In this document: positions 27,880 through 59,900 of the stretch, in pieces
Position numbering within the stretch: position 1 is the stretch's first letter
Layout of the letters: every line of letters starts with the position of its first letter
Assembly (NCBI GenBank): GCA_947561395.2
Contig: OX387187.1
Coordinates: 39,227,829 to 39,291,828, forward strand
Source: Buxus sempervirens
Lineage: Eukaryota > Streptophyta > Magnoliopsida > Buxales > Buxaceae
DNA length: 64,000 nucleotides
Reading direction: 5' to 3'
Notes under the pieces: generated by a model
What the model was told of the DNA's origin: nothing
The model's input: the letters and a program-made list of their open reading frames with translations, nothing else
Databases searched by the model: none
Made by a program: the position numbers and the translations under genes

Positions 27880-28147
27880 GGTGGTAGCTTTTAATCTCTG
27901 AGACCGTCGGGGAGCAATGGTTGCCGTAAGAACTTAGTACCTTGGTAAAAGAAAAAAAACAAAAGAGAAAAATGTTAGTACCCCCTAAATCAATTTTAGA
28001 CACCTATGCATGCATGCATGTAGGCTTGGTGAACATGAGTTTGGGGTTTTCTTTGTATCCATATTTTTTTGATTTTTGTATTTATGGTTAAAACAACCTT
28101 GTTAAGACGAGGTGATTGATACGAAAAAGATCAAACCTCAGAAATTT

Positions 28148-28928: not shown

Positions 28929-29657
28929 TGATTTTCTGAAATTCCAAGGCTTTTTGATGCCCAAAGTATTTTTGATTTCCAGCCTTAGGTGTTTTGAGTT
29001 AAAAAGAGACTCAATTTGTCCTTAAGGTGGTGATTTATTTGAAATTTTCTTTCATTGGATTTTTAAATGATTATTTGCTTGGAATTCAGAGGTTTCCCAG
29101 TGACCCAATGAGTTGAAATCTTAAAAGTTTGAACACTTTATGATTAAAGATTTCTTATTTTTTGGTTGGAATTTGTTCCATTTCAAAAGAGTTGAGCTTC
29201 GTTTCCTTTTATTCTTGGTTTAGATCCCATTTTAGGCCTAAAACATGCTTTGGAAACTTATTGTGATTTCCAAGTTCAATTCTTGAGGTTGAAGTATGAT
29301 TAGATTGGTTATTTGAACCAACTTTCTTTTAATCATTTACTTCACTTAAGATGGGTTAAGTGTTCAAATTAGGTAAAAAGAGCCTAATATGAGCTTAAAC
29401 CCCCAAATTTGGTGCTTGACCTATTTTTTGGTTTGAGCCAACTTTTATTTTATCATTTTCACCTTTGAGTTGAGTTAATTTGTTCAATTTAGGTGAATAT
29501 GTTCAAAATGACCTTAATCTCTTGATTTGGGTGGATTTGGGATGGTTTAAATGCCATTTATCTTATTTGGAGCCCTTGCACATTTGCTTATATGACTTAG
29601 GGATGAAAGGACCCAGAAATGTTTAATTAGCAAGGCTAGAATGGGATTTCGGCTTAA

Positions 29658-29744
29658 AACCGTACATTCAGGACGGTTTGGCTCAAACCGTATGATACAT
29701 GCGGTTGCAGCGAAAATGCAGACAACCGCATACTCAGGACGGTT
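29658..29744. promoter_or_regulatory. E1 leader AACCG/CGGTT half-site array
   Basis: Three units of the same form as in the E1 LTR U3. Confidence 0.6.
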
Positions 29745-30656
29745 GCAAGCCGAAAATGAGATTTTCGATTTGTTTCTTTTTCCAATTGGTTTCATTAGCT
29801 TAGTTAAATGCCCAAACACATTGTTCACCATTGGGTGGCTTCCAGACTGCCCCAAATTGGGCATTTGACACATCAAATGGCATTAAAGGCCCGCTTAACC
29901 CTTGAATTTCATGAGATTGCATGGGGATACAAAAAATATGTACAAACAGGTTTCTTATGATAAAAGATACTTGTTACAACACAAATTGGCCTTCAAGGGC
30001 ATGAATCAAAATAAAATTACAATTTTAGCCTCCTTGGGCTTGAGAATGAGAATTTTTAAACTAAAAAAAGGAAAGACCCTTTGCACCAGCAGCTCCTGGG
30101 TGGCCTTCACACACAAATTTCCTGCAAAACAAAGGATTAGTAATATTCGTACATAGGAGGGCCTAGGCTCCCTCCCCAAAATGGACACCCAATGCATGGA
30201 TTTTCGGACTTTTGGGTGCCTCCTATGGACATTTGGGTAGAGTGACACCTAAGAAGAGTAAAATCTCTCTCTAAGGGCTACACCAATCCTAGGATAACAA
30301 CAACTTTCTGGGAACAACAAAATCCCACCAAATGGACACCATGAGCTTGATTTGACAAAGTACAGAGGTCACCACAGGAAATAAAATGAGAATACCTTGT
30401 TGCCTCGTGTTTACCTTCAGAAAAATGGTGTCCATATCATACCTGAGATCACCTGAGCCATGCAAGACGGCCTTCCCTCATTACAAACCCTTTTCCCATC
30501 GCATTTGGTTTATTTTGGCCAAAAGGGTGTTTCTCCACCTTCGCGTAGGGGTTTTGGGTTTTGGCTTATTGGCAACTTAGAGCTCAAGCCTAGTGTATGA
30601 CCAGAATTCTAGATCCACCATGTCATCACATCATTGGCTCAAAGTCTCTAAGGTGA

Positions 30657-30850
30657 ATGTTTTCACTTTCGCTTTCCGAAGTAACGACTTCGGTGCGCCA
30701 AGCTACACACATTCTTGTTCAACTTCCTATAGGTGATAGGTAGGCTGTGTAAAAAATAAAAAAAAGTGCTCAAGTGCATTTGAAAAAGAAGGTCACATTC
30801 AACACAACGTCCCACCCTTGCCACTCTTTTTTCGTAGCCATGCAAGCGAT
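30657..30850 (-). other. E1 leader block conserved with E4
   Basis: In element sense it contains CCTATAGGAAGTTGAAC, TGTGTAGCTTGGCGC and GCGAAAGTGAAAACATTCACC, all present in order in E4 at 43309-43500 although surrounding leader sequence has diverged. In E1 it also forms a 7-bp stem, CCGAAGT/ACTTCGG around AACG. Role unknown; a packaging or dimer-linkage signal is one possibility. Confidence 0.6.
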
Positions 30851-31323
30851 ACACACCAAGGCATGATATAGAGATCATTTTTGAAGTAAATAAACATGGG
30901 AACATTCAATAATAATAAAAAAAAACTAGCATGCTTCATCTAAATATGCATTCACCCAATCATGTAAACATGGAGGCATGTTATCATATCATACAACAAA
31001 TAGCATTCAATTATGGTGAGCATGCTTGACATATTCAAAACATCTCTCAAAATTTCAGATTATATATTCATGGCATTAAGGCCTAAATCAGAACATGCTT
31101 ATCATGGAAACATGGCAATCTAGCATGGCAAGGCTATCTATGTTCCCTAACATGGTTTTGAATACAATCAAGCATACATCACATACCCTATTCTTATGGG
31201 TCTTGGATCCTCAGAAACAAAACACAAAAGTTTAGCATGCTCATTACAATCAATCAAACAATCAAACCATCAAAAAAAATCAAGCAAAATACAAGCAAGC
31301 AAAACATGGCTCAATTCCACCTC

Positions 31324-31341: not shown

Positions 31342-33158
31342 GTTGTGAGACATGGATTCATCATCTCGGATGACCTTCGATATCGTCATGCAGGGATCGA
31401 TAAATGTTAGAGTCGCCACCATCCATTTTAGGGTGTGAATGGACACCAAATGGTTCATGAAAGCCAAATAGAGCCCAAGTAGCTCTAATATAAAGAAAAA
31501 TCCAGAGATCAGGTAAGGGGAATTATTTATGAGTGGGAGAAGGTGTTAGGCACCCTCACTCATCCGTCTAAGACGGTTGCCACATGCTTGCTCATGTCAA
31601 GGATTGTTTGCTAATCAAAATAGACAAAGGATGCTTAAAAGTAAGCAAAATGTAAGTGATTATTCCACATGAGTAGTCCAATAAATATGAACCCTCTCCA
31701 TGGATATATCACCTCTTAGAACTTCATGAGTGAATAAAAATCAAGGTAAAAATTGAAGCAAAACCAATTCAAGGCAAATCTGGAAAAATCAGATTATGAG
31801 AACTTGAAAGCTTCGATTAACCATAACTCACTCAATTTAGATCCAAATCCAATGAAACCAAAGCCATTTGAAAACTGGTATATAGTATAGTATACAGTAA
31901 AAAATTCAACTCAATCTGATTTAAAACGAGAGAGAAATCCACATTTGAAATCTGCTGTTATAACTCGAAAAAAGTGGTGAGTAGGCATTTGCAAAATCCT
32001 ATTCGTGGAATTTGGCTCAATAAAAATCCATGAAAATTGGTATGGAGGAAGTATGTGGTGCCATCTTTCCAAATAGATAAGCCTCACCCCAAACTCTATC
32101 CGGATGTGGCTTGTGTGCTCTCTTGAACAGGCCTAAAAGACCACAGATGAGCTCTGGACTATGCCAGCGAGCCCTTCTGAGTCAACTGAGCACCCAAGAC
32201 ACAAAACAGATTGAAATCTGCCAAAACCAGTTGGAAATGAAAATAGACTTCTCAAAGAAAACTCAGAAACTGGAATCACGGGAAACGGATTAAAACTGAG
32301 CAAATAGTGCACCATCAAAGCGGCAAGTTCAGCAATCTGGGCTGAACTGTCTTACAAACTTTGAAGAGATGGTGTCAAAAGTTGGCTACATGGAAAAGGA
32401 CGAAAATTTCCAGATATTAAGTAGGCTCTCCAATCTATCACATGTCTTTGGAATCACTCAAACATTCATCCGGAGGATGAAGTTATGAGTCTTCCAAGAC
32501 AGGCCACAGATCTGTCCTGTTTTGAGGTTTTTGAAGAGGAAACATGGAAACCAATGCAAGTGTGCATGTGGATTCGACCAAAACCTCAAAATCAACAAGA
32601 AATCCTCTCATGAAGTTCTAAAACTCATTCTAAGGCCTAGGACCTCAGATTTTCCATATTGAACATGAAAAGCCCAAGATCTAGCCTATTTGATGAAAAT
32701 AGTGAAAAGTGAGTGTGAAGGTGTGGAAAATCTCATTTCTATGAGAAGGTTGGAATCCATGGCTATTGAGAGCATGGATTCACATCTTCTCCAAATATAA
32801 AATAAAATCAGAGAAGCATTCAAGGGTTCAAAATAACCATATAGCATGCTTTTCATCATTTGAGGGTTCTAAACCTAGAGGATCCATTCCACCTTCCTTT
32901 TCCCCAGGCTCTCTCTTCACGTTTTACGGCTAGAGAGGATTCCCTAGGTACTTTAGAAGGGGTTTGGGGTTGCAAAAATGCACAAAGGCCTTACACTACA
33001 GAAAGGTAGAAGATGAGAGATTTGCTAGAATGTAAAAGGGAAGACTGGAAATGAAAGAGAGCTTTACCCTTCAGTAGACAATCCAGTGGAGCTTCTCCTT
33101 CTTCTTGCAGAGCTTCTAAGCTTCAAATTGTCAGCCATTTGCAAGAGGAGGACCCCTC

Positions 33159-33166
33159 TATTTATA
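33159..33166 (-). promoter_or_regulatory. E1 5' LTR TATA box
   Basis: TATAAATA on the minus strand, same position relative to the LTR end as in the 3' LTR. This would drive the E1 genomic RNA. Confidence 0.6.
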
Positions 33167-33367
33167 GGCCAAGTCAAGGGTAGAAGAGTCCCAAGGGTAG
33201 GCCAAAAAGGCCTTCTAGATTATTTCAATTCTCCTCCAAGGCTTGAATTGGAGTAATTCAGCAAGTTTCGGAGGGTGAAATAGGGAGTTCAAGTCCCTAA
33301 GAGAGAGGTAATATGCGTAAATAAGGCTCAGAGATCGAGCCATTTCGCAAATCCCCGAAATAGCCAA

Positions 33368-33635
33368 AACCGTATACACAGTGCGGTTTCTACACAACCG
33401 CCACTCAAAGTGCGGTTTATGTACAAATTTGACCAAACCGCATATACAGGGCGGTTCAATTCAGTTATGCTTTAATTGATTGCTGTCCACGCGGCTTAAC
33501 GGCCGAAGCTTCGCGAAGCCACGTGGCCGCCAGCGCAACAAGCCTTGATGTGAACCGTGCTGTGTGTGCGGTTGCAACCGCACATACAGAGCGGTTGAGA
33601 CCAAGATTATAAAAACCGCATACTCAGTATGGTTG
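33368..33635. promoter_or_regulatory. E1 5' LTR U3 array of AACCG/CGGTT half-sites
   Basis: Six units as in the 3' LTR. One CGGTT has become TGGTT (near 33630) by a C-to-T change. Confidence 0.7.
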
Positions 33636-33747
33636 GCACCAATTTTGATTGTTTTTGAAAGTTTGACATGTGTCAAGGCTCAAATAAGACATTTAAAGCC
33701 CATCTTAGTTAATCTCTTATATTGGGGTGCAATTTGGGGTGTCTACA

Positions 33748-40506: not shown

Positions 40507-41071
40507 GGCGCGAGCTCTTGATCTGGTTACAGGAGCTATGATTGCAAGTGTATTGGTACCTGGATACAAAATAAAGGAAAAAATATCAGTGCCCAATTAA
40601 TCTCATTCACATGCTTAGGAATGCCTATGTGCAAGCCGGGTGAATACGAGTTTGGATTTTTTCTTTATTTGCTTCTTTTTTCTTTTCTTTTTTTTTTTTG
40701 AATTGAATTGTTGGAATATTCTAGGGCTTCCAACAGGTCCCACAAAAGAGAGAAAGATCTGAAATTCAAAGGCTTTCAGAGGCCCGGGGTGTTTTTGAAA
40801 AAGGTCTAAAATTCAAAGGCTTTCAGAGGCCCAGGGATATTTTTTGGAAAAGGTCTGAAATTCAAAGGCTTTCAGAGGCCCAGGAATATTTTGAGAAAAG
40901 GTCTGAAATTCAAAGGCCCGAGGATTTTTGATGAAAGTCTGAAATTCAAAGGCTTTTAGAGGCCCAGGGATATTTTGAGAGAAAAAAAAGTCTGAAATTC
41001 AAAGGCTTTCAGAGGCCCAAAGATCTAAAGTTCAAAGGCTTTCAGAGGCCCAAAAGAAAAAGGTCTGAAAT
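40507..41071 (-). repeat. E2 leader fragment with hairpin repeats
   Basis: Non-coding. TGTTGGAA/TTCCAACA lies near 40710-40736, followed by about seven units of TCTGAAA/TTTCAGA hairpins (40755-41066), some decayed (for example one unit has TCTAAAA against TTTCAGA, and one lacks its second arm). It is the minus-oriented counterpart of E4 44405-45745. The E4 insertion interrupts it at 41071/41072, after GAAAT. Confidence 0.8.
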
Positions 41072-41174
41072 TGTAGACACCCCAAATTGCACTAAAAATG
41101 AGAAAATAATTGAAAATATTAATTGGGATTTGAAACAAGTCAAAAAAGTGTAAAATCTGGCCAAACTGGTCATG

Positions 41175-41276
41175 ACCGTATTTTGTTTACGGACTGGTCA
41201 TATCTGCAGTTGATATACGGTCACGGCGTGCCCGTATTAATAATACGGGCAGGGCGCGACCGTAATATATATACGG
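41175..41276. promoter_or_regulatory. E4 LTR U3 array of CCGTA/TACGG half-sites
   Basis: About eight half-sites, including GACCGTA, TTACGGA, GCCCGTA and ATACGGGC, in alternating orientation about 15-20 bp apart, 210 bp upstream of the TATA box. Confidence 0.65.
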
Positions 41277-41487
41277 ACACGGGGGTCTTTGTGCGAATTT
41301 TACCTTTTTGATTTTTGAGCCTTATCTGCACCCAAATATCTCTCTTGGATAAGCGAATTATCTTATTTATTCATCTGAATTATCCTATTTATCCTTGTTG
41401 GCCATGGATTGGCATTATCCATATTTTTTACCTAATCCTGAGGATCAGGATATATCCTTCTGGACCAGCCTTGCCCCTGTGCTTGTC

Positions 41488-41495
41488 TATAAATA
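41488..41495 (+). promoter_or_regulatory. E4 LTR TATA box
   Basis: TATAAATA, followed by AGAGGC, as in the other LTRs of the stack. Confidence 0.6.
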
Positions 41496-42888
41496 GAGGC
41501 TCTCTCCTCTAGCTAAAGGCCACGAAATTTTGAAGAATCAAAAGCTCCAAGAGAAGGAAAGGAATCCCTGCTGCTCTGCGAACTCAATCCAGGTAAGTCC
41601 CCTATCCCTTTTTATTTTCTGTCTTCAATTCTAGAAGTAATAGGATCATCTCTATTGCTGTAGAATAAGGCCATATTTATTTTGTATCCCTAAACTTGTC
41701 TCTAAGTACCTCAAGGGTCTCTCTAGCCGTAAAACGTGAAGAGAGAACTAGGGGAAAGGGGAACAGGTGGATCCCTAGAATAGAACCCCATATCTGTTTT
41801 TTTCTTTTTTCATAGAATAAAGCCTGTGATTGTGTTTGTGTAACCAAACCTATCTCCAAGTACTTCAAGAGTCTCTCTAGCCGTAAAACGTGAAGAGAGA
41901 ACTAGGGGAAAAGAGAACAGGTGGATCCGTAGGGTAGACCCCCATGTGCTCTAATTTGTGAGATGTGGCTATTTTGAATATCCTGATCATGTTTTAATGC
42001 TTTTTATGATATATCTGAATGAATAACATGAATCTATGATGTTTATAGCATGAGATCCTCTCTTTTTGATAAAATTTGGATTTTTGCCACTTTTGCACCT
42101 ACAGCACTGTTTTCGTGATTTTTGTGAGTTTAGGCTAGGATCTTGGATTTATCATGATCAATATGGTAGATCTGAATCCAAAAGCCTGAAAGTAAATTCC
42201 AGGGTTTCATGAGATGTTTTTTAAATCGTTTTTCATTATTGAGAGAAGACCCTACGGTCTCAGTTCTTCCCTTTTGGTGTTTTTCATCAACGTGGGTATT
42301 TTTGGTTTTGATTTTCAGATTTAATGTGAAATTTGGGCTTTACCTATGACCTGGATTATCCAAGTTCAATTTTGAAATATTTTATAAAAATCATATTTTT
42401 CTAGATTTCTAGAATTTTGACTTGAAGCCAGATTTTTGGATTTTTCACTTTAAATTGATTTTATTCGATTTTATCTCAAATTTGTTTTGATCATGAAACC
42501 CTAGGAATGGTATGATCATATTTGAAAGTTCTGGATCAATCAGAACATTCATATGAAAAAACCATATATTTTTACCTTTTTTGAGATTTTTGTGATTTTT
42601 ATAGCAAGCTTTTTCCTTTATTTTAAACATGAACAATGCCTGGCAACCACCTTGTGTGGATGAATAGGGGTGCCTAACACCTTCCCCTGTTCATAACTTA
42701 ATCCCCTTACCCATCTCTGGTTGTTTTTTTTAGGAGGGATATTTTGCCCTAAAATGTGCCTTTTGTGCTTATGTAATATTTTGGTGTCCATTCACACCTA
42801 AATTGAATGGTGGCGATTCTTTGTTTAATTTAATCCCGTGTGATGATAGAGGAAATCATTAGATTGATTTTTTCCCATGTCTCACAAC

Positions 42889-42906
42889 TGGCGACTCTGC
42901 TGGGGA
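42889..42906 (+). other. E4 primer binding site
   Basis: TGGCGACTCTGCTGGGGA, two bases after the LTR end. It matches the E1 site except for one base. Confidence 0.8.
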
Positions 42907-44404
42907 CTTGTGGATTTCAGCCTTTTGGTGTTTGTTCATGTTTTTGATTTTTTTGATTTGCTTGCTATTTTGTGTTCTTAAGCATGTTGAATATGTTTTA
43001 AATCTGAATTATTGCCTAAGAATTCATGGGGGTAGAAACATGCTTAATTTTGATTTATAGGATTTTTTCTACAAACATGCGTAGGGGAGGTCCGTTTTGC
43101 TGAACTATGCTTATTTTTTGCTATATTTTTATGATAGCATGTTTTAATTTTCAGCATGATCTCCATGATGATTTTGGGGTGTATAACATGATCATATGTT
43201 TGCATGATAGATGATTTTTTTTATGAGCATGTTTTGGGTGCTATAGGATTGCTTTATTTACTTGTTTATTTTAAATATGCTTTCCTATTATGCCTTGGTT
43301 TGTTTATGCATGGCTGCGAAAAGAGTGGCAAGGGTTTGGGACGTTGTGAATGCACCCTATTTTTACAATGCACTGTGCACCTTTTATTTTTACACAGCCT
43401 ACCTTTAACCTATAGGAAGTTGAACCCGAATGTGTGTAGCTTGGCGCAACGAGGTCGATACTTCGGAAAGCGAAAGTGAAAACATTCACCTTAGAACTTT
43501 GAGCTAATGATGTGATGATAATGTGGATCTGGGATTCTGGTCATCACTAGGCTTGAGTGCTAAGTTGCCATTAAGCCAAAACCCAAAACCCCTACGCTTG
43601 AAGGTGGAGTTACACGTTTTTGGCTAAAGTACACAATTACGTGGGAATACGGGTTTGTATGATTGTGGGAAGGCCGTGTGCATGGCTTACAAACCAGGGC
43701 ATAATGCGGATGCTATATTCAAGGTAAACAAGGTAACAAGGTAATCCTATTGTTTTGCATTATTTTCATGTCATAGGGGTGTCATGGTACCCATGGGTTT
43801 GGGATAAAATTGGTCCCAAAATATGCATATTTTCTAAAATTTGGTGCAGCCCATAGGAAGAGTTTCTAACTCTGTTTAGAATCAATCCTACCCTATGTAC
43901 ACACAAGAGGCAACAAAAGGGTATCAAATTCTTGAGTATGATGTCAATTTGGAGGGTACATGTGCCCTCCTAGGCATGTGTTTTAACAAAAAGGCCAAAG
44001 TACACTTTGGGACAGTTTAGAAGCTCTGCAATGGGTGAACCGTACGTTTGGATGAACAATGAAAGTGACCAAACCATGAAAAAACTGAAAAAAATATAAC
44101 AGGGTTCCGTAAAACCGCATTTAGTACACGGGCTGGGCTTGCCCGTATTGGTTATACGGGTTAGGCTCGCCCGTGGATTGCATACGGTCACAGCTTGCTC
44201 GTAATTTGAATACGGGCAGGGCTGGACCGTACTGTGTATACGGTTTTCTCGGAATATTCAACTTTAATCAGTTTTCTCACTAAAATCTTCCTTTAACCTT
44301 TAAATAATGATAAAGGGAAACAAGTTTGAATAAAATGCTTCAAAAAAAAAAAAAAGAAAAAAAAAGAAAAAAAAACAAAATAATTGAATAAAAAAATGTG
44401 AGAG
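42907..44404 (+). other. E4 leader, upstream part: conserved block and half-site array
   Basis: Non-coding, AT-rich. 43309-43500 is conserved with E1 30657-30850 (GGAAGTTGAAC, GTGTAGCTTGGCGCAACG, GCGAAAGTGAAAACATTCACC). A half-site array of CCCGTA/TACGGG type lies at 44107-44246. A poly-A-rich stretch at 44341-44395 precedes the hairpin array. Confidence 0.6.
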
Positions 44405-45745
44405 AAAGGTTCCTTGGGCTTCTGAAAGCCTTTGAATTTCAGACTTTTTCAAAACTCTTGGGCTTCTGAAAGCCTTTGAATTTCAGACTTTTTCAAAACT
44501 CCTGGGCCTCTGAAAGCCTTTGAATTTCAGACTTGATTTTTTTTCTCAAAAAACTCTTGGGCTTCTGAAAGCCTTTGAATTTCAGACTTTTTCAAAACTC
44601 CTGGGCCTCTGAAAGCCTTTGAATTTCAGACTTTATTTTTTTTCTCAAAAAACTCCTGGGCCTCTGAAAGCCTTTGAATTTCAGATTTTTCAAAAAATCC
44701 TCGGGCCTCTGAAAGCCTTTGAATTTCAGACTTTTTTTCTCAAAAAACTCCTGGGCCTTTGAAAGCCTTTGAATTTCAGATTTTTCAAAAATCCTGGGCC
44801 TCTGAAAGCCTTTGAATTTCAGAACTTTCGGTCCTCTGAAAGCCTTTGAATTTCAGACTTTTCCTCAAAACTCCTTGGGCCTCTGAAAGCCTTTGAATTT
44901 CAGACTTTTTCTCAAAAACTCTTTGGGCCCCTGAAAGCCTTTGAATTTCAGATCCTTTTTCCTTTTCGGGACCTGTTGGAAGCCCTAGAATATTCCAACA
45001 AACCTTTTTTGGGCCTTCTATAAGCCTCTGAATTATAGACACATATCCTTTTTGGGCCGTCTAAAAGCCTCTGAATTTTAGACAGACCTTTTTCTTTTGG
45101 GCCGTCTAAAAGCCTCTGAATTTTAGACAATCATTTCCTTGGGCTGTCTAAAAGCCTCTGAATTTTAGACAAATAATTTGTTTGGGCCATCTAAAAGCCT
45201 CTGAATTTTAGACAGACCTTTTTCTTTTGGGCCGTCTAAAAGCCTCTGAATTTTAGACACAACTCCTTTGGGCCGTCTAAAAGCCTCTGAATTTTAGACA
45301 AATCATATCCTTTGGGCCGTCTAAAAGCCTTTGAATTTTAGACAAATCATATCCTTTGGGCCGTCTAAAAGCCTCTGAATTTTAGACAAATCATTTCTTT
45401 GGGCCGTCTAAAAGCCTCTGAATTTTAGACACATTCCTTTGGGCCATCTAAAAGCCTCTGAATTTTAGACAAATCCTCTTTGGGCCGTCTATAAGCCTCT
45501 GAATTATAGACACATATCCTTTGGGCCTCTGAAAGCCTTTGAATTTCAGACTTTTTTCAAAATATCCTTGGGCCTCTGAAAGCCTTTGAATTTCAGACTT
45601 TTTTCAAAAATATCCCTGGGCCTCTGAAAGCCTTTGAATTTCAGACTTTTTTTAAAAAATCCCCCCCGGGCCTCTGAAAGCCTTTGAATTTCAGATCATT
45701 TTCTCTTTTTGTGGGACATGTTGGAAGCCCTAGAATATTCCAACA
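44405..45745 (+). repeat. E4 leader hairpin array, about 30 units
   Basis: Units of about 40-55 bp, each with GGGCC, a left arm, the loop GCCTTTGAA or GCCTCTGAA, and a right arm complementary to the left. Arms come in classes: TCTGAAA/TTTCAGA (44411-44950 and 45525-45695), TCTAAAA/TTTTAGA (45058-45470, often extended by a G-C pair), TCTATAA/TTATAGA (near 45017 and 45488) and TGTTGGAA/TTCCAACA (near 44974 and 45720). Class changes keep base pairing. It lies directly upstream of gag. Confidence 0.9.
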
Positions 45746-45937
45746 ATTCAATTCAAAAAAAAAAAGAAGAAGAAGCAAATAAAGAAAAAAATCCAAACTC
45801 ATGTTCACCCAGCTTGCACATAGGCATACATAGGCATGTGAATGAGATTAAATTGGCACTGATATTTTCTCTTTATTTTTCCAGGTACCAATACACTTGC
45901 AATCATAGCTCCTATAACCAGATCAAGAGCTCACACC
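45746..45937 (+). other. E4 pre-gag region with probable splice acceptor
   Basis: Poly-A and AT-rich sequence, then a pyrimidine tract ending TTTTTCCAG at about 45883, followed by GTACCAATACACTTGCAATC, which is conserved before gag in E2. Together with the donor at 41593 this could bound a leader intron of about 4.3 kb. Confidence 0.5.
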
Positions 45938-47164
45938 ATGAATCCCATTGAGACTGAAGCTGATGCTCCTCACCCAGATCTTGTCCTGCTTCAGGAGCAA
46001 GTGGCAGGACTAGCCCGAATGCTAGAGAACATACTATCGGTGCAGGCCCAACAAGTTCAAGCCCAGAACCAAGCACCTCCACCTCCAATCAATATCCCAC
46101 CTCCGGTTCAACCTATTCCTGAACCCATTTCTGAACCTACCCCTGAACCTATACTGATCAGGGAGGAGATGGTTGAGTCTGAGAAAGAGAATGAAAAAGA
46201 AAAGATGAGGGATGAAATAGAAAGAAAATTCATGCACAGGCTGGAGATGATCCAGGATGAAATGAGGGAGGTGAAAGGGATACGTAACTTTGGGGGTACC
46301 AATTTTGAAGATTTGTGCCTATACCCCGATGTATGTCTACCGGCAAAGTTTAAATGCCCAGATTTTGATAAATATGATGGCACTGGCTGCCCAATGAGCC
46401 ATTTGAAGTTATACTGCGGGGCTTTATGCCAGTTTGGCAGGGATGACGGCATACTAATTCAACTCTTCCAGAGGAGTTTAATTGGAGCTGCTTTGAAGTG
46501 GTTTGCCACTTTGGATCATGGGAAAATAAGAAGGTGGAAGGATTTAGCAGATTCCTTTTTGGCACAATACAGGTTCAACTCTGAGATTATACCAGATAGG
46601 TATGACATGATGAGGATGACAAAGAGAAATGATGAGACCATAAGGCAATATGCTAAAAGGTGGAGGGAGTTGGCTACACAAGTCAAGCCACCCGTGGGAG
46701 AACCAGAAATGATTTCAACTTTCATCATGACATTGGGGCAACCATTTTATAGTCACTTGGTGGGTCAAATTACCACCAACTTTGCTGCCCTAGTGCAAGT
46801 GGCAGACAGAATTGAAGATGGGATCAAGTCTGGGAAAATAGCTGATTACTCTGCAGTGTTGAACCAGGAAGCTTCCACCACTTTCTCTACACAGAAAAAG
46901 GAGAATGGTAATGGAAGAATAAAGAATGAAGAAAGGAGAGAATGAGAAGTGAATATGGTACAACTTACCAGGGAACCCTTTCAAATCAATGTCCATCCAC
47001 CTCCTATCAAGCCAACTCATCAATTTCCTTTGCTGCCTATTCAAATTAATGTCCCTTCTGCACAGCCTGTGAAGGAGGAAATAGAAGTAAAGAAGAGAAG
47101 GGAATTTTCTAAACTGCCTATGAGACCATCTGAACTTTTGCCTACCTTACTTCAGAAGGGTTAT
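45938..47164 (+). pseudogene. E4 gag, 5' part, one nonsense and cut by E3
   Basis: Begins MNPIETEADAPHPDLVLLQE. It has the Pro-rich N-terminus and the gag domain (FKCPDFDKYDGTGCPMSHLK, PDRYDMMRMTKRNDETIRQY). TGA at 46943-46945 replaces a Gly codon relative to E3. Translation homology continues in the same frame (46949 on) until 47164, where the E3 LTR starts after GTTAT (probable target duplication 47160-47164). The zinc-knuckle, protease and pol are not in the window. Confidence 0.9.
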
Positions 47165-48578
47165 TGTGAGACATGGGAAAAAATCAATTTACATGATTTC
47201 CTCAATCATCACACGGGATTATATAAACAAAGAGTCGCCACCATTCAATCTAGGTGTGAATGGACACCAGAATATTAAATAAGCACAAAAGGCAATTTTA
47301 GGGTAAAAATAACCCTCCTAAAAAAAACAACCAGAGATGGGAAAGGGGATTAAGTTATGAACAGGGGAAGGTGTTAGGCACCCCTATTCATCCACACAAG
47401 GTGGTTGCCAGGTATTGTTCATGTTTAAAATAAAGGAAAAAGCTTGCTATAAAAATCACACAAAATCACAAAAAAAAACAAAAATATATGGTTTTTTCAT
47501 ATGAATAGTCTGATTGATCCAGAACTTTCAAATATGATCATACCATTCCTAGGGTTTCATGATCAAAACAAAATTGAGATAAAATCAAATAAAATCAATT
47601 TAAAGTGAAAAATCCAAAAATCTGGCTTCAAGTCAAATTCTAGAAATCTAGAAAAATATGATTTTTATAAAATATTTCAAAATTGAACTTGAATAATCCA
47701 GGACATAGATAAAGCCCAAATTTCACATTAAATCAAGAAATAAAAATCAAAAATACCCACGTTGATGAAGAACACCAAAAGGGGAGAACTTAGACCGTAG
47801 GGTCTTCTCTCAATAATGAAAAACGATTTAAAAACCTCATCATGAAACCCTAGAATTTATTTTCAGGCTTCTAGATCCAGATCTATCATATTGATCATGA
47901 TAAATCCAGGATCTTAGCCTAAAATCACAAAAATCACGAAAACAGTGCTGTAGGTGCAAAAGTGGCAAAAATCCAAATTTTGGAAAATAGTGAGGATCTC
48001 ATGCTATAAACATCATAGATTCATGTTATTCATTCAAATATATCATAAAAAGCATTAAAACATGATCAAGATATTTAAAATAGCCACATCTCACAAATTA
48101 GAGCACATGGGGGTCTACCCTACGGATCCACCTGTTCTCTTTTTCCCTAGTTCTCTTTTCACGTTTTACGGCTAGAGAGACTCTTGAGGTAATTAGAGAT
48201 AGGTTTGGTTACACAAACACAATCACGGGCCTTATTCTATGAAAAAAAGAAAAAAACAGATATGGGGTTCTATTCTAGGGATCCACCTGTTCCCCTTTCC
48301 CCTAGTTCTCTCTTCACGTTTTACGGCTAGAGAGACCCTTGAGGTACTTAGAGACAAGTTTAGGGATACAAAAACAGATATGGCCTTATTCTACAGCAAT
48401 AGAGATGATCCTATTACTTCTAGAATTGAAGACAGAAAATAAAAAGGGATAGGGGACTTACCTGGATTGAGCAGGCAGAGCAGCAGGGATTCCTTTCCTT
48501 CTCTTGTAGCTTCTTAGAATTCCTTGGACTCAAAATTTTCGTGGCCCTTAGCTAGAGGAGAGAGCCTCTATTTATAGA

Positions 48579-48586
48579 CACACCCA
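48579..48586 (-). promoter_or_regulatory. E3 LTR TATA box
   Basis: TATAAATA on the minus strand, preceded by the half-site array at higher coordinates. Confidence 0.6.
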
Positions 48587-48767
48587 GGGGCATGGTTGGT
48601 CCAGAAGGATATAGCCTGATTCTCAGGATAGAGTGAAATACAGAGATAATGCCCATCCATAGTGGCTTCAGCGAATAAAATACTTAATTCGCTCGTTTAA
48701 AGATATATTGGACTTCAAATAAGGCTCAGAAATCGAGAGAAGGACCAAACTTGCACGTGTCTTTAAT

Positions 48768-48872
48768 GCCCGTAAATATACTACGGTCCAATGGGGACCG
48801 TATAGTTACTACGGACGCGCCTGCCCGTAGATATTTTGCGGGCGAGATCGACCCGTGAAGTCAATACGGGCA
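48768..48872. promoter_or_regulatory. E3 LTR U3 array of CCCGTA/TACGGG half-sites
   Basis: GCCCGTA, TACGGTCC, GACCGTA, TACGGACG, GCCCGTAG and ATACGGGC occur in alternating orientation within about 105 bp. Confidence 0.65.
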
Positions 48873-48974
48873 AAGCCTGTTCATTCTATTTTTAGGCCTT
48901 TTTGACCTGTTTTAAGCTCTAATTACATGTTTTTATTATTTTCTCATTTGGCAGTGCAATTTGGGGTGTCTACA

Positions 48975-50774: not shown

Positions 50775-53707
50775 ATGGCCCGCCTTCGATCAGCTTCTAG
50801 GGATCCTGCGGATGAGCCTTCCTCTTCGAGAGTTAGGCGTGATCCTGCTGATGTGGCCTCGTCTTCGAGGACCGAGAGGTATTCTGATTCAGATGTTCCT
50901 GATCTTCCTTCTGGGGATTCGCGTGAGGCGACCCCAGAGGTATACTCTAACTCCTTTGAATTTAATAATCCTTTTCAAAACACATCATCTTGATTCTTTC
51001 TTCTCTTTAATTATTTTCTTTTAGCCGCCTGTTGAGGCTTCGGGCAGAGATAGGAACCGTAGTAGGCGTCGAGCTGGAGGCAGAGATGGAGGCCATGATG
51101 AGGGCCGTAGAGGAGGCCGCAGAGGGGGCCGTGGCAGAGATGAGGCCAGGACCAGGGTTGAGATCCCTGAGGAGGTAGCTGCCCAGATTAGGGACACTGA
51201 TCTTCTGCATGGTTTGAGGACTCATCCCTCAGCGTGCGTTAGGGCGGATATCCCTTTGGAGTATCCGATGTCCCATTATAGAGGGAGCTGGGCCAGCTTT
51301 ACTAGATTCTTGAGAGCTTGCAGTTCGGCCTATCGTCGGGAGCTAGGATTGTACGGTTTCAGCATGTTTATCACCATCCCGGACGTTCGCTTGGATCGAG
51401 CCCTCATTGCAGCATTATTGGAGAGGTTTTTCCCAGAGACCTTGAGCTTCCACTTCCTAGATATAGAGATTGGGATCCGGCCTTCTGATTTCACACTCAT
51501 CACCGGGATTAGGATGATCGGTGATGTTATTACTGAGATGACTATGCCAGAGGCTGATGAGATTGCAGCTTATCTTGGATATATTGTGCTGCCTCCTGAG
51601 GCATGGGATCGAGGGAGAGCTAGATTGTCTCTGACATGGCTGAGAGAGACTTTCAGGAGGAGGCAGTTTGGCCAGCTTGCTGCTGGTGACCATGTTTTTC
51701 CTTTCGCCTTCAGATTTCTTTTTCTGTATATGATGGGATCCTGCTTCTTCCCAGAGGACACGACTTCAGTTAGTCCTCACTTCTTGAGTCTTCTGGGAGA
51801 TCTGCAGCGGGCGAGGAGGTATGCCTGGGGCCCGCTCATATTTGGTACTATTCTGGCTGGCCTACGCCGATCAGTGAGTGGCCTCTCTACATCCAAAGGG
51901 GCTGGAGTTGGATGCCGATTCTTCTGGCCTTTTCTGCAGGTGAAATGTTTATTTCCTTTCTTTTTCACTCTTTCCCTTTTCCTTATCTCTCTTTTTCTAT
52001 TCTTCTGACTATTTTCTTCTTTCTTGTAGTTTTTTGCTAGGGTTTATATACCCTATTTCCGCCCTACCTCTACGATGCCTGAGGAGACATATCCTATGGC
52101 ACTTAGATGGTGTCATGTAGAGCACGACTCTGAAAAGAGTCGTCCCAGGTCCGCCCGGGCCCACTTAGACAGGTTATACCGGTCTGAGGTAATCTTCTTT
52201 TAATTCCTCTACTTTTTCTTTTCTTTTCTTCCTGGATCGCATATCTGATGTCCTGTTTTGTTTTTCAGCTATTTGTCCCCAGGATGGAGGACATTCATGA
52301 GGTGCTGGCCCTGCAGGCTGCGAGAGATGATGCATTTGTCCCTGACCAGAGACGACAGAGATACCAATTCTTTATTGGTCAGCTGGGCAGCATCTGGTAT
52401 TGTGGCGAGCGCTTCTTCTTTCAGCATGTGGGAGAGCCGCGGATTCCTGCCATCCCGCCAGATACTACTCCTTTCTATCCTCCTATGCCTGTTAATCCTG
52501 CCCAGTTCTTGGATTGGACTGAGGCAGAGACATTATTGGAGGAGGGTGACTATGATGCCTGGTTCAGGCGATCTTCTGTTGGATGCCTCATGTCACCCAT
52601 GCCTGTCCGTGGCGGAGTCACGGAGATAGGAGGGGTAGTGATTAGGGCCTATGACACTACGGTATGCTTTCTTCTTTTGTGACCTTCTATTTCTATTTCA
52701 TCTGTCCTTAGCATTTTTCTGACTTCTTTCTTCTCTATTTCAGGAGGCTCAGTTGGTAGAGATCCGGTCTCGCTATGCTGATTTAGAGCGCCAGCGTGAT
52801 GCAGCGATCGCTGAGCGGGACGCCCTCTATATCACTATTTCCGATCTCCGGGGGCAGCTAGCCAGAGCCCAGGGCCAGGAGGGTCCATCTGATGCACAGG
52901 ACCAGGCGGGTCCGTCTGATACTCAGGTTAATTTCTTTTTTTATTTCCATTCCTGCTTTTGTATTAGCCTATCTTGTTCTGACTGAATTTTTTTCTTAGT
53001 TTCAGGAGTACACCGCTGGCCCTTCTTCACCTGCTTCACCCGTGCCTATGCATTTCCGGGATGAGGTGTTTTCTGTGGCACGGGTGGAGTTCGTGACGTC
53101 TCCCAGTCCAGTGGAGGTTCCTGCAGCAGAGCCCGAGGTCGAGGCTGATATTGTACCTGCTGCTGAGGACGTGCCAGAGTCTGCCCCAGTAGCTGAGACT
53201 GCTCCTGCTGCATCTGCTGATATAGATATAGATTCGGCTATGGACGCCGCTGGGGTAGAGCCTACCGTGGAGACTGCTGTGATGGAGGAGGCTACAGCTG
53301 ATCCTGTAGAGCCCGAGGTGGAGATGACTGCTACTGAGCCTGTGGAGCCGGAGGTTGATGTACCTGGGACGTCTGCTCCTGCTGGTCCTGTTAGTCCTGA
53401 TATGGAGGATGCGGAGGTGACACATGCTGCTGTTGATCCTTCTGCAGATTCTTCCCGTACAGAGTCTGATCCCGATTCTACGGGATATGTAGATACTTCA
53501 GGGTACGTCCCTCCTGATCATCCCACTGCTGGCCTTGTGCCTTTATATATGTGGCATGATATTCAGTCTGTTTTGAGCAGGATGACGCGTAGCACGGCCC
53601 GCAATATTGTGCGGCATGTCTTTGAGCGTAGGCGATCTACAGGCCGTGGTCGAGGCAGAGGACGAGGCCGTGGCCGTAGGAGCGGACCTGCATGGCCATT
53701 AGATTAG
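50775..53707 (+). CDS. E3 antisense gene P: plant-mobile-domain-like protein, six coding exons, open
   Basis: Exons 50775-50939, 51025-51939, 52030-52188, 52269-52661, 52744-52926 and 53006-53707 encode 838 residues. All five introns are 79-90 bp, GT...AG, pyrimidine-rich and phase 0. Exon 2 begins with an RG-rich basic segment, then a plant-mobile-domain-like region (residues about 120-410: RFFPETLSFHFLDIEIGIRP, FTLITGIRM, GCRFFWPFLQ). Exon 4 has a conserved DYDAWF and GGVTEIGGVVIRAYDTT. Exon 5 is a coiled coil (ADLERQRDAAIAERDAL). Exon 6 is acidic, then conserved (GLVPLYMWHDIQSVLSRM) and ends in an RG-rich tail that could bind nucleic acid. The start was chosen for exon fit with E1. It is antisense to gag-pol, next to the 3' LTR. 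Function unknown; the family is linked to transposons and their silencing. Confidence 0.88.
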
Positions 53708-54162
53708 GATTCTTCCATGTACCTTTGTATTTTTTGGCAAAAGTGATGTAAACATTCATGTATATAAAAGAAGTTTGATTTATTTCCATTTGTGTTCTTT
53801 CTTCTTTATTTATAGTATTTATTACCTCATGAATGTTAAACAGGGACATGTGAAGCTTAGGGAAACAAAGGAAATTAAAAGTTCCCATTTTTTTGCATTT
53901 TTTCGAAGGAACCGTATTTATACTACGAGCAAGCCGTGCCCGTAAAATTACTACGGGCGTACCTTGCCCGTGAATTTTCTACGGTCAGGCGTGTCCGTAA
54001 TGTCTATACGGGCGAGCCTTGCCCGTAATATAATTACGGAATTTACTGCCTTGCGATTTTTTCTATATAAACTCCTAGGGAACGTCATTGTGACACTTTT
54101 ATTGATTGGAAAACTCCCTGAGCACGTCTTTTCTCGCTTTCCTTGGCTTCTTTGGCGCTTCC
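53708..54162 (+). promoter_or_regulatory. E3 intergenic region P-D: gene D promoter
   Basis: P 3' UTR, then a CCCGTA/TACGGG half-site array at 53910-54040 with about nine half-sites, then TATATAAA at 54064-54071, then ACGTCATTGTGACAC near 54082, then the D ATG at 54163. The in-frame ATG at 54106 is an alternative, but E2 has no ATG at that place. Confidence 0.65.
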
Positions 54163-55956
54163 ATGGCTTCCCCTACGCCGCTTTCTCCTGCCGTTGAATC
54201 TCCTCTTGCAAGACAACCTGTTAGATCAAAACCTCCTAATCTTACCAGGTACAATATTGTGGATTCCTTTTATGATAGATGGGTTAACTCCATGACCCTT
54301 GATGAGGAGATTCGTTGGGGTTCCATCCACTTAGGGCACATCCTACACCTCCCTAAAATTCCCTTTAAGTGGGAAATCATTGAAGCTTTGATAGGCCATT
54401 GGGTACCTGAGCTGAATCTCTTCCGTTTTGATGATAAAGAGATGACTCCTACCATAGAAGAGATTGAAACCATCCTTGGCCTTAGATTTTCTGAAAAAGT
54501 TGTGAACCCACCCCTAAAGCTTAGTTATAAAAAGGAGGCTTCCACTTTCTTGGGTATAGGGAAGAAGGACTTAGGAAATTCTGATGCACTATTGACCTTG
54601 TCCAAGACCTTTTTGACTGAAAAACTTCTGAGGAGTAATGACAAGGACTCTAGGTTTAATGCATTGACCCTAATAGTGGTCAATCAGCTGTTTTTTCCAC
54701 GGGGTGATGACCAGGTTGACTTGGCTCTTATCTCAGTTATCTGTCAGGTTAGGGAACGCGAGAGGTTGGCCCCTATGATCCTAGCAGAGATATATCAGGC
54801 TCTTACTAATTGTTATTTCAGGAAGAAGAAACGCTTCCTTGCCTGCGCCCCTATCCTACAGGTAAAATATGCATGTATTTTTTTTCTATTTTTTTTTTCT
54901 ATTCTTCCTTTCCTTTCTTTCTTCTCTTCTTTCTTTTTTTTTTTTTTTTTTTCTTCTTCTTCTCTTTTTTCTTTCTTCTTTTCTTTTTTTTTCTTTTCTT
55001 TTTTTTTTCTTTTTTTTTTTTTTCTTTTTGGAAATAAATTGAAATACTTCCTTTTCTTGCAGCTTTGGTTGCTTGACCATCTTAGCCAGGTTGAAGAAAT
55101 AACTCGCCGCTTCTTTCCAAGATTGAAAGTTCCTGTTCTGATGAGCAATAGGGGATGTCCTAACATCCAAGGTGGTAAGCAAGGCTGGTTCACTTTCTTG
55201 GGTACTCTCCAGGATGATCAAGTGAGATGGCCTGGCACTTACCAGCCCACTCCAGAGACAGTGATCAGCTTTAGAGATAAAAACTTTCTGGTCCTAGCAG
55301 GCTTGAAATCTGCTGTTCTCTATCTTCCTTTGAGGGTTCTTCGGCAATTTGGAGCGACCCAGGGAATCATGATTCCCACAGGTTATGAGAGCTTTATAGG
55401 GCCACTTACTTCAGCCACCATGGGGCTAAATGCTCAATTAATGAAAGAGTGGTCCTATGTTTGCTTTCTGCGGGGTCCAGTCTTTGCTGAGTCCTATGTG
55501 AAGGACTATCACTTCTGGATCAAGGAACAGGTGCAGAGTCATGCCCCAGTACCAGAGGATCCTCCTGCAGTTCTTCCTCCTACTTATGAGGACATTCTGG
55601 AGTTAGAAAGGGCAACCCATAAACGGCTTCAACAAATATGGGTACGGGAGGCTCAAGAACTTAGGATAAAAGTTCTTTTTCTGGAGAGGCAGCTTGAAGA
55701 GCAGAAGTCTGGCCGCATTGCCATAGAGAAGAAACTTGAAGAACAAAGGCTAGCTCGTCGCTTTGAAGTCCGAGTGATGCGGAAGAAGTATCAGGATTCC
55801 TTGGCTGACCTTAGGGCGTTGAAGATCAAGCTTTCCTTTTCAGATGAGGTCATCTCCTTTTTGAGTGATCCTGATGCAGAGGGTGCTTCTGGAATCATTG
55901 CAACTCAGGCAGCTAGGATTAGGGAACTTGAGGAGCAGTTAGGGAGTAGGGATTAG
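54163..55956 (+). CDS. E3 antisense gene D: DUF7745/plant-mobile-domain-like protein, open
   Basis: Exons 54163-54861 and 55063-55956 encode 530 residues. The intron (201 bp, GTAAAA...TTGCAG) is almost pure T/C. Residues 68-110 hold WEIIEALIGHWVPELNLF and MTPTIEEIETILGLRF, followed by a Leu-rich helical region (DALLTLSKTFL, APMILAEIYQALTNCY). About residues 400-520 form a charged coiled coil. The intron has no in-frame stop and a length divisible by three, so a retained form with 67 extra, Phe-rich residues could in theory be made; conservation of exons but not of intron sequence in E1 argues that it is spliced. Convergent with pol. Molecular role unknown. Confidence 0.88.
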   Translation: MASPTPLSPAVESPLARQPVRSKPPNLTRYNIVDSFYDRWVNSMTLDEEIRWGSIHLGHILHLPKIPFKWEIIEALIGHWVPELNLFRFDDKEMTPTIEEIETILGLRFSEKVVNPPLKLSYKKEASTFLGIGKKDLGNSDALLTLSKTFLTEKLLRSNDKDSRFNALTLIVVNQLFFPRGDDQVDLALISVICQVRERERLAPMILAEIYQALTNCYFRKKKRFLACAPILQVKYACIFFLFFFSILPFLSFFSSFFFFFFFSSSSLFSFFFSFFFFSFFFLFFFFLFGNKLKYFLFLQLWLLDHLSQVEEITRRFFPRLKVPVLMSNRGCPNIQGGKQGWFTFLGTLQDDQVRWPGTYQPTPETVISFRDKNFLVLAGLKSAVLYLPLRVLRQFGATQGIMIPTGYESFIGPLTSATMGLNAQLMKEWSYVCFLRGPVFAESYVKDYHFWIKEQVQSHAPVPEDPPAVLPPTYEDILELERATHKRLQQIWVREAQELRIKVLFLERQLEEQKSGRIAIEKKLEEQRLARRFEVRVMRKKYQDSLADLRALKIKLSFSDEVISFLSDPDAEGASGIIATQAARIRELEEQLGSRD

Positions 55957-56944: not shown

Positions 56945-59900
56945 TCATGGAAAATATCTCTTTACTGCATCAGAGTTAATTGGCTCAGGAAAATCCTTTC
57001 CATCCATTTCTGTTAAGATAAGAGCACCCCCTGATAGAACTTTCTTGACCACATAAGGTCCTTCCCAATTTGGTTTAAACTTTCCACGAGGATCTTCCAA
57101 AAAGGGTAAAATCTTCTTTAATACCAAATTTCCTTCTTGGAAAGTTCTGGGCTTCACCTTTTTATTGTAAGCCCTAGCCATCCTCTTCCGATATATTTGG
57201 CCATGACTAAGTGCCTTCAAACGCTTTTCTTCAATTAAATTGAGTTGATCATGTCTAGACTGTATCCATTCAGCTTCTTCTAATTCTGCTTCCATTAGCA
57301 CTCTTAGTGAAGGTATTTCCACTTCCACTGGTAAAACTGCTTCCATTCCATAGACTAAGGAGTATGGGGTCGCTCCTGTAGAAGTCCGAATTGAGGTTTT
57401 GTAAGCATGTAGAGCAAGTGGCAGCATTTCATGCCAATCTTTAAAACTCACTACCATCTTTTGAATAATCTTCTTTATATTCTTATTGGCTGCTTCCACT
57501 GCCCCATTCATCTTTGGTCTGTAAGGCGCTGACTTGTGGTGGGTAATCTGAAATTGTTCACACATCTTCCTCATGTCTTTGTTCTTAAGGTTTGAAGCAT
57601 TGTCTGTTACTATGGCACTTGGCAAACCATAGCGGCAAATGATGTTATGCTTCAAAAACTTAAGAACATGGCTACTTGTAATGTTTGCATAAGAAGCCGC
57701 TTCTACCCACTTGGTAAAGTAATCAATTGCTACGAGTATAAATCTATGTCCATTTGATGCCTTTGGAGAGATCATTCCAATGACATCTATACCCCACATA
57801 GAAAAAGGCCACGGAGATGTCATACTGTGTAATTCACTTGGGGGTGCATGCTTGTTATCCGCGTACACTTGGCATAAATGACACCTTTTAACGTGCATAT
57901 AGCAATCATGCTCCATAGTCGACCAGTAATATCCCAATCGCAGAATCTTCTTGGCAAGCATATGCCCATTCATATGGGGTCCACACACTCCTCCATGTAC
58001 GGTTTCAACTATCCTTTCTGACTCAGTTTTTGCAACACATCTAAGTAGTATATCATTGTGTGATCTTTTGTACAACTGCCCACCACTTAGTAAGAACTGT
58101 CCTGCCAGCCTTTGTATTGTTCTTTTCTCTGTAGAGGTGACATTTTCTGGTAAGCTCCGATCATTTAGGAAGTTCTTAATGTTTTGAAACCATGGTACTT
58201 CTTCTTCTGGGGTTTCTTCTAAAACAAGGCAGTAAGCTGGTTCGTCTCTGACTTCAATTTCCAATGGTCTAATATCAACCCCTTCTGGCATATTGACCAT
58301 TGAAGCCAATGTTGCTAGAGCATCTGCAAACTGGTTTTTGGCCCTTGGCATATAATTGAAGGAAATTCGAGTAAATTTATTGCTTATTTCTTCCAAATAC
58401 TGGTGATAGGGGATCAATTTGTGATCCTTGGTTTTCCATTCACCAGTTGTTTGGAAGATGATAAGACTCGAATCTCCATATACGTCAAGTTCCTCTACTT
58501 CATGATCTAAGGCTGCTTGTAACCCAATTATGCATGCTTCATACTCTGCTATATTGTTCGTGCATTGGAACCTTAACTTCACTGCGATTGGGATATGTGC
58601 CCCATCTGGCTTGATCAGAACAGCCCCTATTCCATTTCCATTCATATTGGCGGCCCCATCAAAAAACATCTGCCATGAGCTCTCACCTTCTTCCTCTTCA
58701 GCAAACAGGATTGCCTCATCAGGGAAGTTGGTCTTTAAGGGTTGGTATTCTGGTAAAGGGTGTGCGGCTAAGTGATCTGCAATAGCTTGACCCTTAATGG
58801 CCTTCTGTGTGATATAGGTGAGGTCAAATTCAGAGAGTAACAACTGCCACTTTGCTGTTCTGCCAGTTAAAGCTGGTTTCTCAAATAGATACTTCAAAGG
58901 GTCCATGCGGGATATCAATAAGGTGGAATGACTAAGGAAATAGTGCCTTAGTCTCTGAGTTGCCCATACTAAAGCACAACAAGTCTTTTCCAAAGGTGAA
59001 TACTTTGCTTCATATTCTGTAAATTTCTTACTCAGGTAGTAAATCGCCCTCTCCTTTCTGCCTGTATCGTCATGCTGTCCTAAGACACACCCCATTGATG
59101 TCTCCAAAACAGACAAGTATAGGATTAGTGGCCTTCCTGGAGTTGGTGGTACTAGCACAGGTGGGTTTAATAAGTATTCCTTTATTGTGTCAAAGGCTTC
59201 TTGGCACTCATCATTCCAGACTGTCGGGTTATTCTTTCTTAAAAGTTTGAAAATTGGTTCACAGATAGCGGTGAGCTGTGCTATGAACCGGCTTATGTAC
59301 TGAATCCTTCCAAGAAAGCCCCGAACCTCCCTCTCGGTTCTAGGTGATGGCATTTCAATGATGGCTTTAGCTTTAGCTGGGTCAATCTCAATTCCTCTTC
59401 TGCTTACTATAAAACCGAATAATTTTCCTGATGTAGCCCCAAAGACACACTTAGCAGGGTTCAGCCTTAGACTGTATTTCCTAAGCCGATCAAATACCTT
59501 CTTCAAGTTGATCAAGTGGTCTTCTTCTTCGCATGATTTGGCTATCATATCATCCACATAAACCTCCATCTCCTTATGGATCATATCATGGAATAAGGCT
59601 GTCATGGCCCTCTGGTAGGTTGCCCCAGCATTCTTAAGTCCAAATGGCATGACAGTGTAGTGGAAGGTACCCCAAGGGGTGATAAAGGCTGTCTTCTCTT
59701 GGTCTTCCTTAGCCATCTTAATCTGATTATACCCAGAAAACCCATCCATGAATGAGAATAGACTATGTACAGCGGTGTTATCCACCAGGATGTCTATGTG
59801 TGGAAGTGGAAAATCATCCTTTGGACTTGCCTTATTCAAATCTCTATAATCTACGCACATTCTGACTTTCCCATCCTTCTTTGGCACTGGCACTATATTT

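Follow-up and report, generated by a model that had tools for sequence, protein, structure and literature searches.

The window analyzed here is a stretch of 64,000 nucleotides (nt) of Buxus sempervirens DNA (assembly GCA_947561395.2, 676.5 Mb in size; contig OX387187.1, positions 39,227,829-39,291,828 of the forward strand), which is plant DNA built of nested long terminal repeat (LTR) retrotransposons. Four elements, designated V, W, X and Z, were delimited by self-comparison and reading of the ends. Element X carries a tandem array of 30 short units between its primer binding site and its gag gene, on the strand of gag, and the two arms of the unit stems covary. In all likelihood each unit is an H-type RNA pseudoknot, in which the flank GGGC would pair with the loop letters GCCU across a stem of 7-9 base pairs (bp). 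As a tentative interpretation, we suggest that giant plant retrotransposons may carry leader-intron arrays of tens of such pseudoknots, that these arrays may constitute a multivalent identity tag setting genomic RNA apart from mRNA, that they may grow by amplification of units while selection acts on base-pairing and not on sequence, and that tens of thousands of modules of this kind may be present in one plant genome. Here we present the features of the array, together with a description of its host elements and of related arrays in the genome.

Array and unit structure

The array of X (44416-45745, + strand) consists of 28 class I and 2 class II units, each composed of flank, stem, loop and stem, lying ~34-55 nt apart and separated by variable spacers. 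The region 44405-45745 contains 29 perfect inverted repeats (stem of at least 7, loop of 4-14), compared with 0.7 on average and at most 4 in 20 letter shuffles; one of them (44817-44841) is an artefact spanning two neighbouring units and the other 28 are units, the later unit list permitting mismatches. An initial annotation of this stretch had described a leader array of about 30 hairpins. The number of units, the arm pairs that it named (TCTGAAA/TTTCAGA, TCTAAAA/TTTTAGA, TCTATAA/TTATAGA and others) and the location in a leader were all recovered.

The main form of class I is GGGC-C-TCTGAAA-GCCT-TTGAA-TTTCAGA (28 nt). In the unit at 44416-44443 (+ strand), for example, the flank GGGC (44416-44419) is followed by loop 1 (44420), the left arm TCTGAAA (44421-44427), the GCCT proposed to pair with the flank (44428-44431), loop 3 with TTGAA (44432-44436) and the right arm TTTCAGA (44437-44443). 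Class II has the form GGG-ACN-TGTTGGAA-G-CCC-TAGAATA-TTCCAACA and is represented in X at 44969-44999 and 45714-45744. The latter is the terminal unit (45713-45745, + strand; GGG flank, stem TGTTGGAA/TTCCAACA, loop starting with GCCC), and the same form also closes the arrays of W and V and the fetched loci read. Because the class I variants of X are arranged in blocks (12 of the TCTGAAA type, 12 with TCTAAAA or TCTATAA, 4 with TCTGAAA), a few variants appear to have been amplified, and the 30 units do not stand for 30 independent events; the 45 class I units of the three window arrays comprise 15 distinct cores. Across 742 spacers of such arrays, G makes up 13% and pyrimidines 61%, a composition that may keep the linkers unpaired.

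Flank-loop complementarity

The GGGC preceding each stem and the loop start GCCU are complementary, and the unit can be folded as a 28-nt H-type pseudoknot. In class I, the crossing helix would measure 4 bp, with a loop 1 of 1-2 nt over the stem of 7-8 bp and a loop 3 of 3-6 nt over the 4 bp. A loop of 1-2 nt is able to span 6-7 bp in H-type pseudoknots, and the loop lengths of class I agree with the span limits familiar for this fold. Flank and loop occur in matching versions, namely GGGC/GCCU, AGGC/GCCU, AAGC/GCUU, GGG/CCC and AGG/CCU. The loop, first described as fixed, is therefore not simply so, since its first 3-4 letters are complementary to the preceding GGGC or GGG, and half of it may be constant because it is paired in the crossing helix. 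The hairpin of the initial annotation is a real pairing unit, but half of the structure, the helix between GGGC and the loop start, had been missed.

Under strict criteria, the three arrays show the flank-loop helix in 28, 4 and 11 of their sense units and in no antisense unit, with 19 occurrences elsewhere in the window on both strands. By a looser measure it is present in 44 of 56 sense and 8 of 56 antisense readings and in 7.3% of random flanks of the same arrays; an unrelated hairpin at 28221 (1 of 57) was excluded from this comparison and from the count of distinct cores. Typing of 1,142 hairpins with GCYY loops from 49 sources, with several offsets permitted, yielded GGGC/GCCT (699), AGGC/GCCT (123), AGG/CCT (75), GGG/CCC (58), AAGC/GCTT (38), other types (27) and no matching flank (122). 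The outer crossing pair of the main family, the 699 GGGC/GCCT units, is G-U, which is a pair in RNA and not in DNA.

Covariation and conservation

The stem was evaluated on 21 class I rows picked to represent the variants. Stem cells were paired in 95.2% of cases versus 82.0% after shuffling, five of the seven pairs were changed on both sides (a count reached by 10 of 500 shuffles), and the covariation score was 0.447 versus 0.183 in shuffles (reached by 0 of 500) and 0.005-0.166 in slid registers. When both helices were considered jointly (13 rows with a one-letter loop 1), 6 of 11 pairs were changed on both sides and the score was 0.331 versus 0.193, each reached by 0 of 500 shuffles. Two units of V (28454-28426 and 28396-28368) differ in six core letters, which form three compensated pairs, including one of the crossing helix (AGGC/GCCT to AAGC/GCTT; CCTGAAA/TTTCAGG to CTTGGAA/TTCCAAG).

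A pattern left free at crossing pair 2 and at most of the stem had 756 + 733 = 1,489 matches in the genome. Among the 100 matches listed, crossing pair 2 was G-C (47), A-T (44), G-T (5), A-C (3) or G-A (1), and the fully paired stems included CTTGGAA, CCTGAAA, TCTAGAA, TAAGGAA, CTTGAAA and TCTGAAA; on the 39 distinct rows among them, the observed stem pairing was reached in 0 of 20,000 shuffles. The left arm CTTGGAA occurred in these 100 matches 42 times with AAGC/GCTT, three times with AGGC/GCCT and once with GGGC/GCCT and a perfect stem. Counted by copies, flank and loop types were associated with p 3e-18. The fourth stem pair, scored in 796 loop-anchored units that came from the window and the fetched loci (38 sources in all), was G-C in 520, A-T in 238, A-C in 18, G-T in 16 and other in 4. 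Arms changing independently, which the initial annotation had named as the observation that would speak against it, were thus seen in 38 of the 796 units at the most variable pair; the near-equal numbers of A-C and G-T are those expected from decay after insertion, to which these one-sided states may be attributed. Its statement that pairing is kept rather than sequence agrees with the stem covariation in the window and in the larger sample, and selection on pairing is supported.

Over 760 pairs of adjacent units, column identity was 0.43-0.60 at 10 or more letters before the stem, 0.77-0.81 at positions -9 to -6, 0.91-0.98 in the flank (-5 to -2), 0.76 in loop 1, 0.79-1.0 in stem and loop, falling to 0.62 directly behind the right arm. 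Mean identity was 0.945 for cores (anchor included) and 0.64 for spacers. The borders of conservation match those of the pseudoknot, while the spacers drift.

Several results weigh against this reading of the unit. Taken alone, the crossing helix has one pair changed on both sides in the window, a count matched in 133 of 500 shuffles (its score in 2 of 500); on the 15 distinct cores the observed value was reached in 191 of 20,000 shuffles, and for crossing pair 2 on the 39 distinct rows among the matches listed in 86 of 20,000. Further pair types did not exceed shuffles for the stem (149 of 500), both helices (339 of 500) or the crossing helix (500 of 500). With each distinct type counted once, the flank/loop association is not significant (p 0.61); since copies associate but distinct types do not, the crossing helix has seen few independent events. 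Imperfect right arms are found in the three AGGC units whose left arm is CTTGGAA, and among 36 listed rows of class II-type units with letters, 34 had GGG/CCC, one GGG/CCT and one AGG/CCC. Of the 122 hairpins lacking a flank-loop helix, ~46 of those printed are antisense readings between neighbouring units. By the looser measure, 8 of the 56 units have an antisense helix and 27 a weaker one. Columns 5-17 of the identity profile were fixed or nearly so by the anchor, flank and outer arms being free. The two helices of the main unit score -5.2 and -3.9 kcal/mol, as single helices and not as a pseudoknot energy, and free-energy folding of the whole array favours pairing between units (z -2.0 for V), which speaks against every structural reading.

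Putative leader intron

The whole array of X is contained in a putative leader intron of 2,161 nt (43724-45884, + strand) with donor-like and acceptor-like sites. The donor-like site (43720-43745, + strand) reads CAAG followed by GTAAACAAGGTAACAAGGTAAT; it forms a run of three AAGGTAA motifs, which is kept in most of 19 loci. The acceptor region (45857-45884, + strand) comprises a branch-like CACTGAT and a pyrimidine tract, closes with a CAG adjoining GTACC, and lies 53 nt upstream of the gag start codon. The same succession of branch-like site, pyrimidine tract and acceptor trinucleotide (CAG in W and X, AAG in V), adjoined by GTAC, comes after the array in all three of V, W and X, at a distance of 53-61 nt from the gag ATG. 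AAG followed by GTAAAC is found upstream of the array in X and V, the donor region of W lying beyond the window, and the putative leader intron of V measures 2,474 nt (27941-30414, - strand). Among the fetched loci, an acceptor-like site follows the class II hairpin in 29 of 48, and 19 of these have a donor-like site too; the span from donor to acceptor is 1,463-3,000 nt, and the distance from primer site to donor is 828-869 nt in the 13 loci where a primer site is present. Of 27 loci scored both ways, all 27 have the class I array on the acceptor strand. Judged by these signals, the array probably resides inside a leader intron; full-length genomic RNA would carry it, and spliced gag mRNA would lack it. 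An upstream extension of gag by splicing was rejected, the frames of X and V disagreeing by eye.

Genomic copies joined at the main donor were not found genome-wide (two matches, both unrelated on reading; reversed control 1 and 4), nor were spliced copies found among the fetched loci. Such an absence would be expected of a spliced RNA that stays out of the particles, and equally if there is no splicing.

Proposed function and alternative explanations

Sources given by PMC identifier are cited here and below from excerpts. Our preferred explanation, which as a complete chain is held with considerable reserve, is that the pseudoknot array acts as a multivalent, protein-binding signal of the packaging type on unspliced genomic RNA. 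Small pseudoknots in tandem on the sense strand of a Tat/Ogre-type leader would be kept on unspliced genomic RNA and lost from spliced gag mRNA by virtue of their position in the leader intron. They would serve as a multivalent docking platform on which Gag, or some host protein, reads shape and constant unpaired letters, and the unspliced RNA would thereby be marked as genome for packaging or dimerisation. The many copies would provide avidity, and stems would be free to change as long as they remain paired. Like a packaging signal, the array is situated in the 5' leader of the genomic RNA; in both X and V it lies behind the primer site and ahead of gag. In retroviruses, unspliced RNA is the form selected as genome (PMC5035971), separate RNA pools are described for BARE (PMC3735527), and for Ty1 a pseudoknot of the RNA is linked to the binding of Gag (PMC8396678). 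On the opposite side of the balance, binding of Gag to the array is purely conjectural. In Rous sarcoma virus (RSV) and human immunodeficiency virus type 2 (HIV-2), spliced RNA carries the packaging signal as well (PMC5035971), so that an intron position is not required of packaging signals. Moreover, the donor motif, and the acceptor motif with its place after a class II hairpin of the same strand, had been written into the locus scan, which leaves the branch-like site, the pyrimidine tract and the distances as its free evidence.

A role in splicing or export has almost the same likelihood as a packaging tag. The array could slow or tune splicing, or serve nuclear retention or export, and thereby set how much genomic RNA there is relative to gag mRNA, without packaging as its direct role. 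Its location between donor-like and acceptor-like sites agrees with this possible, if doubtful, account, as do the partial splicing known for Ogre (PMC6317226) and the structured export element of mouse retrotransposons, the MusD MTE with its pseudoknot (PMC12786077). The 5-47 copies and the strict conservation of the unit would, however, suggest a binder over a spacer. A satellite-like expansion without function for the element, with arms that match because a template switch in reverse transcription or replication has copied one from the other, is unlikely. Template switching makes hairpin arms match without selection; the variants do lie in blocks, one-sided states are present, and repeats are habitual in these elements, strand transfer having been proposed as the origin of their 3' repeats (PMC7004042). 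A single hairpin switch would nevertheless not mend the crossing helix, the conserved segment has the borders of the pseudoknot amid drifting spacers, and the same kind of unit is common to V and X although their arrays barely align.

The initial annotation had also considered a translation element, and on unspliced RNA the array might block scanning or aid internal or shunted initiation at gag. It is located directly before gag in three elements and has no ATG in 1,308 nt, but this role is quite unlikely, given that gag mRNA would be without the array if the intron is removed and that the upstream leader of X has 33 ATG in 839 nt. Selection against AUG was considered and rejected: the array has 0 versus 19 expected, and 13,723 nt of spacer have 17 versus 131 shuffled, but GTA (8), TAG (16) and AGT (4) are as rare in the G-poor spacers. 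Perfect inverted repeats can extrude as cruciforms, and the annotation had left the choice between an RNA element and a DNA cruciform or protein site in the provirus. The RNA level is favoured and the cruciform weakened by the preference of the flank-loop helix for one strand and by the G-U outer pair of the main family; in addition, the order of short and long connecting loops would fit a pseudoknot in the sense strand only, going by the usual geometry. Single-stranded RNA is accordingly supported as the better level, and a DNA element is very improbable. Compact viral pseudoknots, some in tandem, block 5'-3' exonucleases, and the units might likewise shield the RNA from decay; such a roadblock has only a slight probability, the unit being simple, without the ring closure of known resistant RNAs, and the array having no match to an Rfam family at gathering score. 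Dicing of the hairpins was also rejected, stems of 7-9 bp probably being too short.

Host elements

The 5' LTR of X (41072-42886, + strand), delimited by self-comparison and end reading, is followed by the primer binding site TGGCGACTCTGCTGGGG (42889-42905, + strand), which we take to be of the tRNA-Arg type; a tRNA scan in the bacterial setting found none. The start of gag (45938-46945, + strand) encodes a Retrotrans_gag domain; downstream of it, the 3' LTR of Z (about 47165-48974, - strand) interrupts the gene. X begins inside the array of W, at 41071/41072, and this array is cut by the insertion. The insertion into a hairpin array recalls the title of a paper stating that LTR retrotransposons often target palindromes (PMC6911290). 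Element V (7330-33747, - strand, 26.4 kb) sits within W, which is also on the - strand; its LTRs (31344-33747 and 7330-9747) are 98.5% identical, and CAGAG flanks it on both sides. The gag gene of Z extends to the end of the window, and the adjoining stretch beyond it (L059) contains the same kind of array on the - strand, the strand of Z.

The host elements of the arrays are Tat/Ogre-type LTR retrotransposons. In the pol of Z, an RVT_3 domain lies between RNase H and integrase, corresponding to the extra RNase H of Tat/Ogre, and a plant mobile domain, likewise a Tat/Ogre trait, is encoded antisense to pol by the open reading frames (ORFs) 51214-52008 and 54106-55956; both features fit the Tat/Ogre group of PMC6317226, where an ORF with this domain is given for 57% of Ogre. 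The narrower name Ogre is not pressed, because the ORFs 60532-63957 and 56945-60571 of Z overlap and show no Ogre gap (intron) between GAG-PROT and RT. V has ORFs resembling by DNA identity those for the plant mobile domain in Z, including 17869-19521. A leader stretch near the primer site (43262-43687 in X, 30456-30893 in V) is 82.7% identical between the two, which exceeds the 74% over gag-pol of V and relatives; it is another candidate cis-acting region. A database search with gag matched six proteins, including four named ones of plant origin (Gastrolobium, Nicotiana), and returned no DNA match; relatives of gag and pol were not confirmed in the viral contig collection.

Related arrays

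V, W and X each contain the same kind of array, on the gag strand and before gag. That of W (40710-41051, - strand) is listed with 6 class I units and 1 class II unit, and that of V (28149-28962, - strand) consists of 78-bp double units plus single units with AGGC/GCCT, AAGC/GCTT, AGG/CCT and GGG/CCC versions. Towards the end of V-type arrays, at 28221-28195 and in V-like loci, a further hairpin CTATRG/CYATAG seems to covary (CTATAG/CTATAG, CTATGG/CCATAG), without a matching flank. Exact matches to the core AAAGCCTYTGAATTTYAGA number 13,803 + 13,961 = 27,764 in the assembly, with 0 for the reversed control. The window and the fetched loci together hold 37 arrays with at least 5 loop-anchored units (5-47 units each, median 20). 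The class II pattern with the innermost pair left free had 732 + 734 genome matches, and among the matches listed (C1) this pair was always A..T or G..C, with 11 G..C and none mixed. Class II-type units (3,832 + 3,772 pattern matches) also build arrays of their own, with a 76-bp step, in another family (e.g., G000:C1:3683964-3684679). The hairpin core occurred in 8 stretches of the viral contig collection, with one match apiece, and in 42 stretches of the genome contig collection, again with one match apiece, in bacterial records and taken as chance; there was no match among plasmids.

Comparison with known systems

The upstream pseudoknot domain of tobamoviruses consists of several H-type pseudoknots in a row, few in number and stacked without spacers. 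This domain is located in the 3' untranslated region of an RNA virus (PMC4683447), whereas the array described here is upstream of gag. The packaging region of Ty1 resembles the array in having a pseudoknot in the 5' RNA of an LTR element that is tied to Gag binding, but it is a single pseudoknot in a yeast Ty1/copia element, and the excerpt mentions no intron (PMC8396678). Within the same clade, Tat/Ogre/Retand elements possess tandem arrays, the hypervariable 3' repeats downstream of gag-pol (PMC7004042, PMC11963269). Those repeats vary freely, whereas the three window arrays are all upstream of gag and keep their paired structure. Ogre also undergoes partial splicing, but its known intron, between PROT and RT, is in the coding part (PMC6317226); the intron proposed for the present elements would be located in the leader, ahead of gag.

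How plant LTR retrotransposons sort translated from packaged RNA is largely open, distinct RNA pools being described for BARE (PMC3735527) and partial splicing for Ogre (PMC6317226) and EVADE, and the array is a concrete candidate. With tens of thousands of copies, one genome provides a natural mutational scan of an RNA fold, and tandem repeats in retroelements may hide structured RNA. A tandem pseudoknot array in a retroelement leader was not found in the open-access literature searched. The nearest known kinds differ from the array in either location or design.
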